Shown piece after piece: positions 944 to 54,900 of a stretch of DNA of 64,000 bases. The DNA is from Weissella koreensis KACC 15510. GTDB taxonomy: Bacteria > Bacillota > Bacilli > Lactobacillales > Lactobacillaceae. The position numbers and the translations under genes were made by a program. Below the pieces are notes generated by a model. The model searched no databases. It was not told the DNA's origin and was given only the letters and a program-made list of their open reading frames with translations. The stretch's first letter is position 1, and the number at the start of each line of letters is the position of its first letter. The stretch spans positions 868,001 through 932,000 of the forward strand of contig NC_015759.1 of assembly GCF_000219805.1 (NCBI RefSeq), written 5' to 3'.

Positions 944-2344
944 ATGATTAAGAATTACGAACCAACAGCTTGTACGACGATTTTAATTGGTAAAGGGGCC
1001 AGTGCAGATGGCTCAACTATTATTGCTCGAACTGAAGATTCCCCGAATGGCGTGTTCAATGCTAAAAAGATGATTGTGGTCAATCCAAAGGATCAACCAA
1101 GACATTATCAAGCTAAGATATCAAAAGTAGAGATCGATTTACCTGATAATCCAATGCGGTACACAGCTACACCGGATGTGGATGAAAATCATGGTGTCTG
1201 GGGTGAAGCTGGAATAAATGCTGAAAATATTGCAATGTCAGCTACTGAAACAATTACGACAAATGCCCGTGTCTTGGGGGCTGATCCTCTTTTGGAGAAC
1301 GGAATTGGTGAAGAGGATATGTTGACGTTAGTGCTGCCGTATATTCATTCTGCCCGCGATGGTGTTCAACGTTTAGGAGACTTACTGGAGCGATTTGGAA
1401 CTTATGAAATGAACGGAATTGCTTTTTCTGATGTCAATGAAATATGGTTCTTGGAAACTGTCGGTGGACATCATTGGTTAGCCCAACGAGTTCCTGATAA
1501 TATGTATGTAACAGTTCCAAATCAACGTGGAATTGAAGCATTTGATTTAGACGATACTGAAAATTTTATGGCGTCTGCAGATATGATTGGATTTATAAAA
1601 GAAAATAAACTTCAAATTGACGAAGAATTTAATTCTAGAATTATGTTTGGAACACATACTGAAATGGATCATGTGTATAATACGCCACGTGCTTGGTCTA
1701 TTCAAAAAATGCTTACACCACAGGTGCAACATGAGCCTATGGATGATGATATTCCCTTTGCTCAAAAACCTGATCATAAAATAACTATTGAAGATGTTCA
1801 TATGATAATGAGTAGTCATTATCAAGGAACAGAATATGATCCATATGGCCAATTAGGCGATGAAACAACACGAAATCTTTTCCGGCCAATTGGAATTAAC
1901 CGAAATTGTGAGTTAAGTGTATTGCAACTGCGGCCAAATATGCCAGAAGATAAAATGGCTTTACAGTGGCTTGCTTATTCAAGCATGCCTTTTGCGACCT
2001 TGGTTCCTATCTATACACAAGTTCAAGATATTCCAGCATACTTCAGAGATACTACATTGCGTGTGACAAGTGAGTCTTATTATTGGGCTAATCGCTTGGT
2101 TGCAGCAATGGCTGATGCGAATTACAGTGAAATTATTCCATTCATTGAGCGTTATCAGTTAAATACTCTTGGGATGGCACGTCAACATGTTCACGTTGTG
2201 GATCGTGATCCACAAGCTGACTTAGAGTTGGCTAATCAAAAATTTGCGAATGAAATCAAAGAAGAGTTAGAAGCCTTAATGGATCAAGTTTTAATGGCCC
2301 GTTCAAATAATATGAAAAATGGTTATTCACGTTCAGATAATTAA
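944..2344 (+). CDS. pepDA: C69-family dipeptidase (PepDA-like)
   Basis: Cytoplasmic peptidase of the C69 N-terminal-nucleophile family; family members cleave dipeptides released during peptide catabolism. The 466-residue length fits. The early segment ACTTILIGKGASADGST holds Cys10, expected to become the N-terminal nucleophile after processing, followed by IIARTED. There is no signal peptide. The ATG at 944 is preceded by GGAGG at 930-934. A TATAAT at 909-914 is a likely -10, but its -35 is weak. It appears to be a single-gene unit between the rRNA operon and an amino-acid permease, consistent with a role in nitrogen supply. Family assignment is firm; substrate range is inferred. Confidence 0.9.
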   Translation: MIKNYEPTACTTILIGKGASADGSTIIARTEDSPNGVFNAKKMIVVNPKDQPRHYQAKISKVEIDLPDNPMRYTATPDVDENHGVWGEAGINAENIAMSATETITTNARVLGADPLLENGIGEEDMLTLVLPYIHSARDGVQRLGDLLERFGTYEMNGIAFSDVNEIWFLETVGGHHWLAQRVPDNMYVTVPNQRGIEAFDLDDTENFMASADMIGFIKENKLQIDEEFNSRIMFGTHTEMDHVYNTPRAWSIQKMLTPQVQHEPMDDDIPFAQKPDHKITIEDVHMIMSSHYQGTEYDPYGQLGDETTRNLFRPIGINRNCELSVLQLRPNMPEDKMALQWLAYSSMPFATLVPIYTQVQDIPAYFRDTTLRVTSESYYWANRLVAAMADANYSEIIPFIERYQLNTLGMARQHVHVVDRDPQADLELANQKFANEIKEELEALMDQVLMARSNNMKNGYSRSDN

Positions 2345-2390
2345 AATGATTTTTATATAACTTTTATAGATATAAATAAAAATGATCTAT

Positions 2391-2424
2391 TTTGAAATAA
2401 AATAAAATAAAATAAAAATAATCT
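2391..2424. repeat. Low-complexity AAAAT tract
   Basis: About five imperfect AAAAT units in the gap after the dipeptidase gene. No coding or structural signal is visible in the tract itself. It lies just upstream of the permease promoter. Confidence 0.6.
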
Positions 2425-2441
2425 AATACTAATAAGGTTAT

Positions 2442-2469
2442 TGTATTCGCAATTAAGTAGTGATAATAT
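2442..2469 (+). promoter_or_regulatory. Promoter of the permease leader transcript
   Basis: TTGTAT (2442-2447), a 16-bp spacer and TAATAT (2464-2469). Initiation near 2476 would place the leader-peptide Shine-Dalgarno and ATG 5-25 nt into the RNA, as in classical attenuators. Confidence 0.6.
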
Positions 2470-2499
2470 GAAACTATTCAAGGAAGGTGGGAATTAATC

Positions 2500-2556
2500 A
2501 TGCAACAAAATAAACTTGTTAAAATTAAAAATACCACCACCTCAACCACAATTTAA
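2500..2556 (+). CDS. Thr-rich leader peptide of the permease attenuator
   Basis: An 18-codon ORF encoding MQQNKLVKIKNTTTSTTI. It begins 9 nt after a strong Shine-Dalgarno sequence (GGAAGGTGG, 2482-2490). Six of the last seven codons are Thr or Ser (ACC ACC ACC TCA ACC ACA), then Ile and stop. The hydroxy-residue run lies on the 5' strand of an RNA hairpin that competes with an antiterminator, as in leader peptides of ribosome-mediated attenuators such as the enterobacterial thr leader. A stable product is not expected; the act of translation is the signal. The ORF, RBS and pairing are seen directly; regulation by charged tRNA-Thr is inferred. Confidence 0.8.
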   Translation: MQQNKLVKIKNTTTSTTI

Positions 2557-2637
2557 ATGGTTGGGAGTTTTTGGATATCTGAAATTAGATAATTTAGAGC
2601 AACCCAATCAATGCCTTTAGCACTGATTGGGTTTTTT
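2541..2637 (+). promoter_or_regulatory. Ribosome-mediated transcription attenuator
   Basis: Four segments pair in the classic alternative way. Segment 1 CTCAACCA (2541-2548, inside the Thr codons) pairs with segment 2 TGGTTGGG (2558-2565). Segment 2 pairs equally well, over all 8 positions with one G-U, with segment 3 CCCAATCA (2603-2610). Segment 3 pairs with segment 4 TGATTGGG (2624-2631) in the terminator. A ribosome stalled on Thr codons would mask segment 1, allow 2:3 to form and prevent termination. Normal translation would leave the terminator free to form. No T-box consensus is visible. Confidence 0.8.
2601..2637 (+). terminator. Attenuator terminator
   Basis: A perfect 10-bp stem AACCCAATCA/TGATTGGGTT with a 13-nt loop, followed by TTTT. 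It ends about 22 bp before the permease ATG, so it is a conditional terminator for the downstream gene and not the end of the dipeptidase transcript. Confidence 0.88.
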
Positions 2638-2659
2638 ATATGGAAATGAGGAAGGTCAA

Positions 2660-4069
2660 ATGGAAAAAGATAAAGGTGATTCAAACAAAATGGGCTTAAA
2701 AGGCTCATTAACATCTGGGCAAATGCAGATGATTGCTTTGGGTGGAACAATTGGAGTAGGATTGTTCATGGGTTCTGCCTCAACCATCGCCTGGACCGGA
2801 CCATCTGTAGTATTAGCATATGCTGTGATGGGGTTTATTCTATATTTAGTTATGAGAGCATTGGGTGAGATGCTTTATATTAATCCTACTACTGGTTCCT
2901 TTGCGGATTATGCAACAAACTATATTCATCCGATAGCTGGTTGGATTACTTCTTGGAGTAATATATTTCAATATGTAGTGGTTGGTATTTCTGAAGTTAT
3001 TGCTGTTGGAACTTATATTAATTATTGGTTTCCATCTGTTCCAGGTTGGACGTCTGGTTTGGTTGTTTTAATATTTTTAACGCTGGCTAATCTCGTTTCT
3101 GTTAAAGCATTTGGTCGGTTAGAATATTATTTTGCGATGATAAAAGTTGTTACGATTGTTTTAATGATTATTATGGGATTGTTGATGATTTTATTTGGAT
3201 TTGGTAATCATGGTCAACCTATTGGATTTGGAAATTTGTGGCAACATGGTGGTTTCTTTACAGGCGGTTTGAATGGGTTTATGTTTTCACTAGCCATTAT
3301 TGCGGGATCATATCAAGGGATTGAAGTTTTAGGAATTACAGCAGGTGAAGCCGAAGAACCTAAAACGGCTATCGCTAAAGCTATTCATTCTGTGGTTTAC
3401 CGTATTTTGATTTTTTATGTAGGTGCCATCTTTGTGATCGTCACAATTTTTCCATGGAATCAACTTGGACAAATTGGTTCGCCTTTTGTAGAAACGTTTG
3501 CCAAGGTAGGAATTGCTGGGGCAGCTTCTATTATTAATTTTGTTGTTTTGACAGCTGCCATGTCAGGAGCAAATTCGGGTATCTATTCATCAAGCCGAAT
3601 GCTTTTTAAATTAAGTAAAGATGGATTTGTTTCTAAGACAATTGCTAAATTATCGAAGCATCAAGTTCCATATGTTTCAATTATTTCAATTTCTTTTGGG
3701 ATCTTAATTGGAATTATTATGAATGTTTTTTTACAAAATTTTAGTAATATGGGAACAAAGTTATTTGTGATTGTTTATAGTTCTTCTGTTTTGCCGGGAA
3801 TGGTTCCGTGGTTTGTAATTGTGATTAGTGAATTGCGATTTAGGCATGCAAATCAGCATCAAATGATAGATCATCCATTAATGATGCCATGGTATCCATA
3901 TTCTAATTACTTCACACTTATTGCATTAAGTATTATTTTAATTTTTATGGCTATTAACCCAGATACACGTTTGTCGATTATCGTTGGGGCAGGATATATT
4001 GTTGTCTTGGCTTTGTTTTATCTGGTTTGGCATAAAAAACACCCTGATTTTTATCAAGGGAAAAAATAA
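2660..4069 (+). CDS. Amino-acid permease, AAT/APC family (probably Thr/Ser)
   Basis: Secondary transporter of the APC superfamily, 469 residues with about 12 hydrophobic segments. The N-terminal stretch ALGGTIGVGLFMGSAS is the family substrate-binding TM1 motif, and GEAEEPKTAIAKAI after TM6 is also typical. The start is the ATG at 2660, preceded by GAGGAAGG. A longer reading from TTG 2627 would begin inside the attenuator terminator and is rejected. The attenuator reads Thr/Ser/Thr codons, which argues that the substrate is threonine, perhaps also serine. The overall look resembles Bacillus YbxG-like threonine permeases. Family assignment is firm; the substrate is inferred from regulation. 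Confidence 0.88.
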   Translation: MEKDKGDSNKMGLKGSLTSGQMQMIALGGTIGVGLFMGSASTIAWTGPSVVLAYAVMGFILYLVMRALGEMLYINPTTGSFADYATNYIHPIAGWITSWSNIFQYVVVGISEVIAVGTYINYWFPSVPGWTSGLVVLIFLTLANLVSVKAFGRLEYYFAMIKVVTIVLMIIMGLLMILFGFGNHGQPIGFGNLWQHGGFFTGGLNGFMFSLAIIAGSYQGIEVLGITAGEAEEPKTAIAKAIHSVVYRILIFYVGAIFVIVTIFPWNQLGQIGSPFVETFAKVGIAGAASIINFVVLTAAMSGANSGIYSSSRMLFKLSKDGFVSKTIAKLSKHQVPYVSIISISFGILIGIIMNVFLQNFSNMGTKLFVIVYSSSVLPGMVPWFVIVISELRFRHANQHQMIDHPLMMPWYPYSNYFTLIALSIILIFMAINPDTRLSIIVGAGYIVVLALFYLVWHKKHPDFYQGKK

Positions 4070-54075: not shown

Positions 54076-54146
54076 AGGTAGTGACCGGAATCGAACCGGC
54101 GATCACGGTTTTGCAGACCGATGCCTTACCGCTTGGCTACACTACC
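54076..54146 (-). tRNA. tRNA-Cys (GCA)
   Basis: A 71-nt cloverleaf on the minus strand: acceptor GGTAGTG/CACTACC, discriminator T, D arm AGCCAAGCGGTAAGGC typical of Cys, anticodon GCA in CTGCAAA. Oriented opposite to the tRNA cluster at 54347. Confidence 0.95.
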
Positions 54147-54281
54147 AAAATTACTAGCAACAATCTAACATTATACTTTAGATTTAAAATAAATTCAATA
54201 TTTATGATAGTTAAGTGGTATGCTTTATAGCAGTGATATTTATGGCGAAAAAAGAAAATATAAAAACTTTGTCAAAAAGGG

Positions 54282-54310
54282 TTGCCAATATCGAAAATAT
54301 CTTGTATACT
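54282..54310 (+). promoter_or_regulatory. Promoter of the six-tRNA cluster
   Basis: TTGCCA (54282-54287), 17-bp spacer and TATACT (54305-54310), 37 bp before tRNA-Val. Confidence 0.75.
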
Positions 54311-54346
54311 TATTTTTGTTGTTGCGGTTGTAACAATTTAAAAAAT

Positions 54347-54419
54347 GGACGTTTAGCTCAGCTGGGAGAGCACCTGCCTTACAAGCAGGGGGTCACAGGT
54401 TCGATCCCTGTAACGTCCA
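54347..54419 (+). tRNA. tRNA-Val (TAC)
   Basis: A 73-nt cloverleaf: acceptor GGACGTT/AACGTCC, discriminator A, anticodon TAC in CTTACAA. Confidence 0.96.
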
Positions 54420-54421
54420 TT

Positions 54422-54495
54422 GGTCGCATGGTCTAGTTGGCTAGGACGCCTGCCTGTCACGCAGGAGATCACGGGTTCGAACCCCGTTGTGACCG
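54422..54495 (+). tRNA. tRNA-Asp (GTC)
   Basis: A 74-nt cloverleaf: acceptor GGTCGCA/TGTGACC with one G-U, discriminator G, anticodon GTC in CTGTCAC. Confidence 0.96.
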
Positions 54496-54503
54496 TTTTT
54501 AAT

Positions 54504-54576
54504 GGCTCGGTAGCTCAGTTGGTAGAGCATACGATTGAAGCTCGTAGTGTCGGGGGTTCGATTCCCTCCCGCGCCA
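54504..54576 (+). tRNA. tRNA-Phe (GAA), acceptor-stem mismatch
   Basis: A 73-nt cloverleaf: acceptor GGCTCGG opposite CCGCGCC, discriminator A, anticodon GAA in TTGAAGC. The fourth acceptor pair is T4 opposite C69, a mismatch. The other six pairs are Watson-Crick. T arm GGGGG/CCCTC has one G-U. The rest looks functional. Confidence 0.93.
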
Positions 54577-54608
54577 TTTGGGATGTTAAGTTCCATTAAG
54601 AAATAAAT

Positions 54609-54679
54609 AGGGATATAGTATAACGGTAGTACGACGGTCTCCAAAACCGCTGGTGTGGGTTCGATTCCCTCTATCCCTG
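54609..54679 (+). tRNA. tRNA-Trp (CCA)
   Basis: A 71-nt cloverleaf: acceptor AGGGATA/TATCCCT, discriminator G, anticodon CCA in CTCCAAA. Confidence 0.95.
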
Positions 54680-54690
54680 CTTGATATAAT

Positions 54691-54764
54691 GGCGGATGTG
54701 GTGAAGTGGTTAACACATCGGTTTGTGGTACCGACATGCGTGGGTTCGATTCCCATCATCCGCC
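54691..54764 (+). tRNA. tRNA-His (GTG)
   Basis: A 74-nt cloverleaf with the His-specific G-1 opposite C73: GGCGGATG and CATCCGCC. Anticodon GTG in TTGTGGT. Confidence 0.95.
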
Positions 54765-54816
54765 CTCGAGATTTATTTCTCAGTATATATCTCGATTACG
54801 TTTTAACGTAGTCATT

Positions 54817-54900
54817 GCCGTTGTGGCGGAATAGGTAGACGCGCGGGACTCAAAATCCCGTTCTCGCAAGAGAGTGTGGGTTCGATTCCCACCGACGGCA
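54817..54900 (+). tRNA. tRNA-Leu (CAA)
   Basis: An 84-nt class II tRNA with a long variable arm (GTTCTCGCAAGAGAGT). Acceptor GCCGTTG/CGACGGC, discriminator A, anticodon CAA in CTCAAAA. Confidence 0.95.

Follow-up and report, generated by a model that had tools for sequence, protein, structure and literature searches.

A probable threonine-sensing leader-peptide attenuator ahead of a ThrP-like permease gene in Weissella koreensis and part of the Lactobacillaceae

The leader of an amino-acid permease gene in the window, as we call the whole 64-kb stretch of DNA analyzed here, very probably (roughly 0.9) acts in ribosome-mediated transcription attenuation, sensing charged tRNA-Thr and thereby regulating a ThrP-like importer. 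The basis of this reading is a short open reading frame (ORF) rich in threonine codons, a set of alternative pairing strands, the conservation and co-variation of these elements, the geometry of a ribosome placed on them, their linkage to one group of permeases and the presence of T-boxes of threonine type on related genes. The importer would probably be switched on when the cell is short of threonine. Such a threonine-specific leader-peptide attenuator appears to be conserved in part of the Lactobacillaceae, and no Rfam model matches it in the 13 loci scanned.

Results

The Leader ORF and Its Surroundings

The leader ORF, MQQNKLVKIKNTTTSTTI, lies on the forward strand at positions 2500..2556 and comprises 18 sense codons followed by a stop, as delimited from the window sequence and from the leaders of relatives. 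Direct reading of the window places its Shine-Dalgarno sequence (SD), AGGTGGG, at 2485-2491 on the same strand, and the regulatory codons at 2533..2550 (forward strand) specify Thr-Thr-Thr-Ser-Thr-Thr as ACC ACC ACC TCA ACC ACA, with ACC at 2533, 2536, 2539 and 2545, ACA at 2548 and the Ser codon TCA at 2542. The ORF of 18 codons, with its own SD and its Thr run, is therefore present in the window sequence just as an earlier note on this DNA had described it. A comparable density of threonine is rare. In the 64-kb window, small ORFs of 12-36 codons offer 206 start sites behind an SD motif (loosely defined, each nested start included separately), and only the leader reaches five or more Thr per eight codons. 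Among the Thr codons of mechanically called window ORFs of at least 150 amino acids, ACC is used least (130/962), and despite this rarity it provides four of the five Thr codons of the run, a preference that would be explained equally well by base pairing with strand 2 (see below).

A possible promoter, TTGTAT...GATAAT with a spacer of 15, was recognized by eye shortly 5' of the leader SD (2441..2467, forward strand); this candidate is weak because the promoter scan did not list it. Boxes of the form TTGNNN...TATTCT, which resemble that of the window, were also seen by eye before the leaders of some relatives. Elsewhere, the window begins with rRNA genes and tRNAs, contains a purine riboswitch aptamer (RF00167, 26309-26405 on the forward strand, 40.7 bits with a gathering score of 37) and has seven tRNA genes clustered at 54076-54900.

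Pairing Strands and Terminator

Fold, duplex and co-variation analyses define strand 1 (CTCAACCA, 2541..2548, all strands being on the forward strand) as the partner of strand 2 (TGGTTGGG, 2558..2565), which by duplex calculation and co-variation can pair with either strand 1 or strand 3. Strand 3 (AACCCAATCA, 2601..2610; hairpin search, duplex calculation and co-variation) forms the antiterminator with strand 2 or the terminator with strand 4 (TGATTGGGTT, 2624-2633); the latter, together with the T run at 2632-2637, constitutes the predicted intrinsic terminator (2624..2637; fold and hairpin search). A small hairpin, TATCT...AGATA, is predicted between strands 2 and 3 (2576..2591, forward strand) and is compatible with the antiterminator. 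The four strands lie where the earlier note had located them, and the full-length fold of 2482-2660 forms both the 1:2 and the 3:4 hairpins. This fold has an energy of -43.5 kcal/mol, compared with a mean of -32.2 (sd 3.5) in shuffled sequences (z -3.2), none of 200 being as low. Fold and hairpin search agree on a terminator at -16.7 kcal/mol, in which a stem of 10 pairs encloses an inner stem and precedes the T run; a simple terminator scan reported no terminator in window positions 2340-2700.

At the gathering score, the T-box model RF00230 does not match the leader, and at E values up to 1 it finds nothing in the window's own locus (L001). The Rfam families of amino-acid leaders likewise have no match in the window or in the 13 leader-bearing loci that were scanned (L001, L006, L008, L010, L024, L027, L061, L068, L072, L073, L079, L119 and L134). 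Weak Rfam matches other than T-box or tRNA, admitted up to E values of 1 and 0.5, look like chance and were discarded.

Conservation within the Genus

Relatives of the permease, at 58-100% identity, occur in 25 of the 28 genomes of the genus (L001 and L006-L029, with L029 in two pieces), and in 19 of these 25 the permease is preceded by a leader that has both an SD and a Thr run. The run mostly reads TTTSTT or TTTTSTT, with variants STTQTTS in L022 and TTTSFVTTT in L027, and it is kept while the N-terminal halves of the peptides vary. A leader with a Thr run is lacking in the remaining six relatives, being apparently decayed in L007 and not seen in L023, L025, L026, L028 and L029. In L007 (genome G014, about 1290-1500) the leader ORF reads MNNLQQKFELTATPIRL and has two Thr codons only, with LTATPIRL in place of the run, apparently a decaying attenuator before a permease that is 80% identical. 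Flanks of up to 1.5 kb were examined for the dipeptidase gene that precedes the leader in the window. Only three of the 25 loci (L001, L006 and L007) have this gene within them, so the leader travels with the permease and not with the dipeptidase.

A scan of 84,980 genomes for the motif ACCACCACCTCAACCA...GGTTG returned 24 records, 17 of them from Lactobacillaceae (12 Weissella, four Ligilactobacillus and one other). The permease adjoins the motif in 16 of the 24, and the 17th record of Lactobacillaceae (L054) ends before the gene; the seven remaining records, without the permease, look like chance matches.

Leaders in Other Genera

The permease is matched at an E value of 1e-130 or better in at least 295 of the 397 genomes of the family. 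Eighty upstream regions from other genera of the family, picked from the best places among the matches listed, yielded 27 Thr leaders, 26 with at least five Thr per eight codons plus one reading STSTST (L133). These leaders belong to genera g5, g6, g9, g14, g22 and g24, which rules out that the device is confined to the genus of the window; in g6 the run is mostly TSTSTTTT. ORFs with three or four Thr per eight codons in L089, L109, L129 and L137 were not counted as leaders. All 53 leaderless regions were scanned against Rfam, and neither a leader nor a T-box was found in 47 of the 80. Another 20 regions, of which 13 came from other families of the order and seven from four other genera of Lactobacillaceae, yielded no leader; T-boxes were sought in them by letter pattern only. 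Between leader and permease, a terminator was detected by script in 45 of the 46 leaders from the genus and from the 80 regions, the one missed being L119.

A looser motif search in the same 397 genomes produced 54 matches in 51 genomes, compared with two for the reversed control. By coordinates, 37 of the 54 lie directly 5' of a permease among the matches listed, as do two more, L191 and L192; four of the 15 remaining matches were inspected and had no permease alongside. Four additional leaders, L191-L194, stand outside all the pairing tests presented here. L192 and L193, both from g6 (genomes G153 and G326), show a Thr leader, MLIRQLKMHMIQLTSTSTTTI and MLNMQCEMYLIQLTSTSTTTN, respectively, at one copy of the permease; the region of the second copy in these genomes (L097 and L093) shows no leader.

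Co-variation of the Alternative Pairings

We compared the pairing of own and permuted strands in nine columns of 41 of the 46 leaders, leaving out L022, L027, L066 and L072 (no anchor) and L119 (no terminator by script). The 2:3 pairs are standard in 335 of 360 cells, against a permuted mean of 298 and a maximum of 315 in 1000 permutations, counts that are not probabilities because related sequences are not independent. The corresponding figures for the 1:2 pairs are 328 of 360, with a permuted mean of 313 and a maximum of 321; in both cases the registers had been chosen on own partners, which introduces a bias toward own pairs. The segments used in this count for L064 and for g24 (L068-L070) differ from the strand 2 of the ribosome-geometry analysis. 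In the clearest 2:3 column, G or A in strand 2 is matched by C or T, respectively, in strand 3 in 35 of the 41 leaders, the remainder consisting of two G-T, three T-A (g24, in another register) and one A-C (L067) combinations. Opposite this column strand 1 mostly retains T and uses wobble pairing, with strands 1 and 2 both changed in L071 (CTCAATCAC with TGATTGAG) and strand 1 alone changed in L064.

Duplex energies of 28 leaders that are less than 80% alike follow the same trend. Own 2:3 duplexes average -14.35 kcal/mol versus -12.13 for permuted partners (0/2000 as low), and own 1:2 duplexes -14.25 versus -13.52 (25/2000 as low); the own partner ranks first among the 28 in just two cases each for 2:3 and 1:2. 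Relatives, in the comparison that had been set beforehand, retain 2:3 pairing as well as Thr codons, which supports, rather than refutes, the proposal of leader-peptide attenuation advanced in the earlier note.

Ribosome Geometry and Modeled Switch

For 44 of the 46 leaders we modeled a ribosome whose assumed edge lies 13 nt past the first nucleotide of the A-site codon; a passage of PMC4833913 puts this edge at roughly 12 nt 3' of the codon being translated. Strand 1 is situated in or beside the regulatory codons of these leaders, and in all 44 a ribosome positioned on the stop codon extends to within 2 nt of the end of strand 2. When the last Thr codon occupies the A site, the overlap between the ribosome edge and strand 2 has a median of 3 nt, ranging from an overlap of 11 nt to a position 4 nt clear of the strand. 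When the RNA is cut before strand 4, the mean modeled probability of 2:3 pairing in the 44 leaders is 0.42 for free RNA and increases to 0.84 and 0.94 with a ribosome placed at the first Thr codon and in mid-run, respectively, the rise exceeding 0.2 in 30 of the 44. In the model of the window's own leader, 2:3 pairing already reaches 0.89 without a ribosome (1:2 pairing, 0.08) and 0.98 with it, so that the off state of this leader would need 1:2 to form first during transcription.

We infer from these features that the leader is translated, that ribosomes stall on it and that read-through changes as a consequence. RNA polymerase would transcribe the leader ORF with a ribosome trailing. With ample Thr-tRNA, the ribosome would pass the Thr codons and reach the stop, covering strand 2, and once it had left the stop 1:2 would form instead; strand 2 being occupied in either way, strands 3 and 4 would pair and transcription would end. 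With scarce Thr-tRNA, the ribosome would stall on the Thr codons and mask strand 1, allowing 2:3 to pair before strand 4 is made, with read-through into the permease gene.

The Permease and Threonine Supply

The gene that follows the leader (2660..4069, forward strand) encodes a permease of the APC family that we consider ThrP-like, a putative importer of threonine and serine. Its best NCBIfam match is NF047867, the family of E. coli ThrP (YifK), with 558.9 bits over residues 8-458; the curated cut-off of 850 bits is not reached, and by this test the protein is not a ThrP member. E. coli ThrP is described as an H+-coupled threonine/serine carrier in a passage of PMC10070963. The attenuator gains importance by suggesting threonine as substrate for a protein that would otherwise be known only as an amino-acid permease. 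The earlier note had assigned threonine and serine as probable substrates: threonine is supported by the six T-boxes of threonine type described below and by the match to ThrP, albeit below cut-off, whereas serine has weaker indications, namely the single Ser codon here and the Thr/Ser alternation in g6.

Threonine synthase (TIGR00260, thrC) has no match in the genome of the window, all 14 controls being positive, and an importer opened by threonine shortage would fit an organism unable to make this amino acid. Across the genus, some match to threonine synthase is present in six of the 28 genomes and exceeds the cut-off in three; the bacteria of the other 25 genomes probably must import threonine. 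Genome G021, in which the permease (L023) has no Thr leader, is one of the three with the synthase above cut-off.

T-boxes on Related Permeases

The Rfam scan of the 53 leaderless family regions revealed a T-box in six. Three exceed the gathering score of 93 (L078, 107.6 bits; L131, 103.9; L100, 95.1) and three lie below it (L103, 87.8; L127, 68.2; L122, 64.5). The model position that we take to be the specifier in RF00230 reads ACU, a Thr codon, in all six, and the corresponding permeases are 62-65% identical to that of the window. One sensing RNA would accordingly seem to stand in for another, the leader being found on the permease and the threonine T-box on its close relatives. In a permease tree of 39 rows, 22 leader-bearing and four leaderless proteins form one group (100/99), and the four T-box rows included fall outside it.

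The genome of the window contains 12 T-box matches, three above cut-off and none at the leader. A paralogous permease in this genome (L002/L146, C2:776962-778554, 41% identical) is preceded by a T-box and not by a leader peptide; no specificity was assigned to this T-box because its Stem I aligned poorly. A T-box upstream of the permease of L023 was not counted, since it is on the strand opposite to that of the permease and has UAC at the specifier position.

Relation to Known Attenuators

The thr, his, trp, ilv and leu attenuators of Proteobacteria likewise combine a short ORF, enriched in codons for the regulating amino acid, with alternative 1:2, 2:3 and 3:4 pairing and an intrinsic terminator. 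They control biosynthetic operons, whereas the leader of the window precedes an importer gene and is directed at Thr alone; the thr leader of E. coli contains Thr together with Ile. Both the proposed mechanism and the phylum are shared by the leaders of Firmicutes, on which passages of published work report a His leader peptide before hisZ/hisS* in 2010 (PMC2965389), leader peptides of his operons (PMC9413887) and a Leu-rich leader before ilv of S. aureus, with predictions in Lactococcus and Streptococcus cited (PMC5794164). In Lactococcus lactis, a leader peptide was also predicted before lysQ, likewise a permease gene of Lactobacillales (Lopatovskaya 2010, as cited in a passage of PMC4833913). 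The amino acids and genes of these cases, as far as the passages describe them, differ from the Thr/permease case of the window. Because leader peptides of Firmicutes had already been predicted even before a Lactococcus permease, the leader of the window is an extension of a known type. Leader-peptide control in Lactobacillales, which the earlier note had set against the usual T-box regulation, is supported as present here, but related attenuators had been reported or predicted in the same phylum. We recognized no report of a threonine leader of Lactobacillaceae among the open-access PMC papers listed in our searches, and Lopatovskaya (2010) may list related cases.

The threonine T-box (RF00230) shares with the leader of the window both the quantity sensed, uncharged tRNA-Thr, and the kind of target. 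It binds the tRNA directly, whereas the leader is predicted to read it via a translated ORF. A passage of PMC2494555 describes one such Thr T-box for the SteT ortholog, an APC transporter, in the B. cereus group.

Alternative Explanations

The same elements could be viewed as the ordinary terminator of the upstream gene together with a Thr-rich ORF arising by chance, without any regulation. That gene, encoding a C69 dipeptidase (944-2344), is indeed on the same strand and ends 155 nt 5' of the leader ORF. This gene flanks only two of the 19 leader-bearing loci of the genus (L001 and L006), whereas the Thr run, the terminator and the 2:3 pairing stay with the permease and recur in other genera, and chance ORFs of this Thr content are rare; we regard this explanation as extremely improbable. 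Control at the level of translation, by exposure or masking of the permease SD or by translational coupling, with termination playing no part, would find some basis in the location of this SD (about 2649-2656) close behind the terminator and in the pairing of some of its bases in the fold. It is nevertheless very unlikely, considering that a stable stem with a T run is present in 45 of the 46 leaders and that the leader stop is 103 nt from the permease start, which is far for re-initiation.

Other leader peptides of Firmicutes respond to ribosome stalling in general, by antibiotics or nascent-peptide arrest as in macrolide-resistance leaders (cf. PMC4335068 and PMC10314930), and the present leader might do so instead of sensing threonine. 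We give this hardly any credence, since Thr makes up the run in every group despite variation in the remainder of the peptide, the otherwise different leader of L027 also contains a Thr run and related permeases carry T-boxes of threonine type. More weight, though still of an unlikely alternative, is due to the notion that serine, or Thr and Ser together, is sensed: the run includes one Ser codon, g6 leaders alternate both residues, the whole peptide of L022 has five Ser versus four Thr and both amino acids are carried by E. coli ThrP (passage of PMC10070963). Against it, Thr exceeds Ser in the densest stretch of nine codons in all 46 leaders, and the six T-box specifier positions read a Thr codon.

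A Helix between the Leader SD and the Thr Codons

The leader SD (2485..2491, forward strand) can also act as an additional strand '0' that pairs with the Thr codons (helix 0:1a), according to sequence inspection, duplex calculation and a permutation test. In many leaders, the SD together with the bases that follow can pair with the beginning of the Thr run or immediately upstream of it, forming 11 pairs in L059, nine in L073 and 10 in L133. In the 28 dissimilar leaders the own helix averages -11.42 kcal/mol versus -9.89 for permuted partners (0/2000 as low; own partner best in 5/28), and pairing of the SD with the rest of the same ORF averages -4.37 in 24 of the 28, a control unmatched for composition. 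The helix is weak in L060 (-4.7) and L027 (-4.0). In the fold of the window it stands beside hairpin 1:2 without sharing bases.

A default-off or one-shot role of this helix might be envisaged. More specifically, and as a tentative idea that we consider possible but rather doubtful, complementarity of the leader SD to its own Thr (or Thr/Ser) codons would be maintained across genera to close the leader after the first ribosome, making it a one-shot sensor. If so, only the pioneer ribosome, coupled to RNA polymerase, would take the reading, and one short stretch would combine the sensor codons, the border of strand 1 and an anti-Shine-Dalgarno.

A Probable Second Origin of the Leader

In the permease tree L027 falls into another group, with L025, L026 and L028 (99/100), and no sequence similarity between its leader and the remaining ones is evident. 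Its position in a different permease group and its unrelated leader sequence make a second origin likely, so that, judging from sequence comparison, this type of leader probably arose twice; extreme divergence would be the alternative. Segments of the L027 leader that were picked by eye, without a chance control, form a chain with energies of -10.9 (1:2), -11.3 (2:3), -15.8 (3:4), -12.5 (4:5) and -19.7 kcal/mol (5:6, the terminator). A stall on Thr codons would here free strand 2 for strand 3, leaving strand 4 for strand 5, whereby the terminator would open. This chain of six strands presumably resembles that of his-type attenuators.
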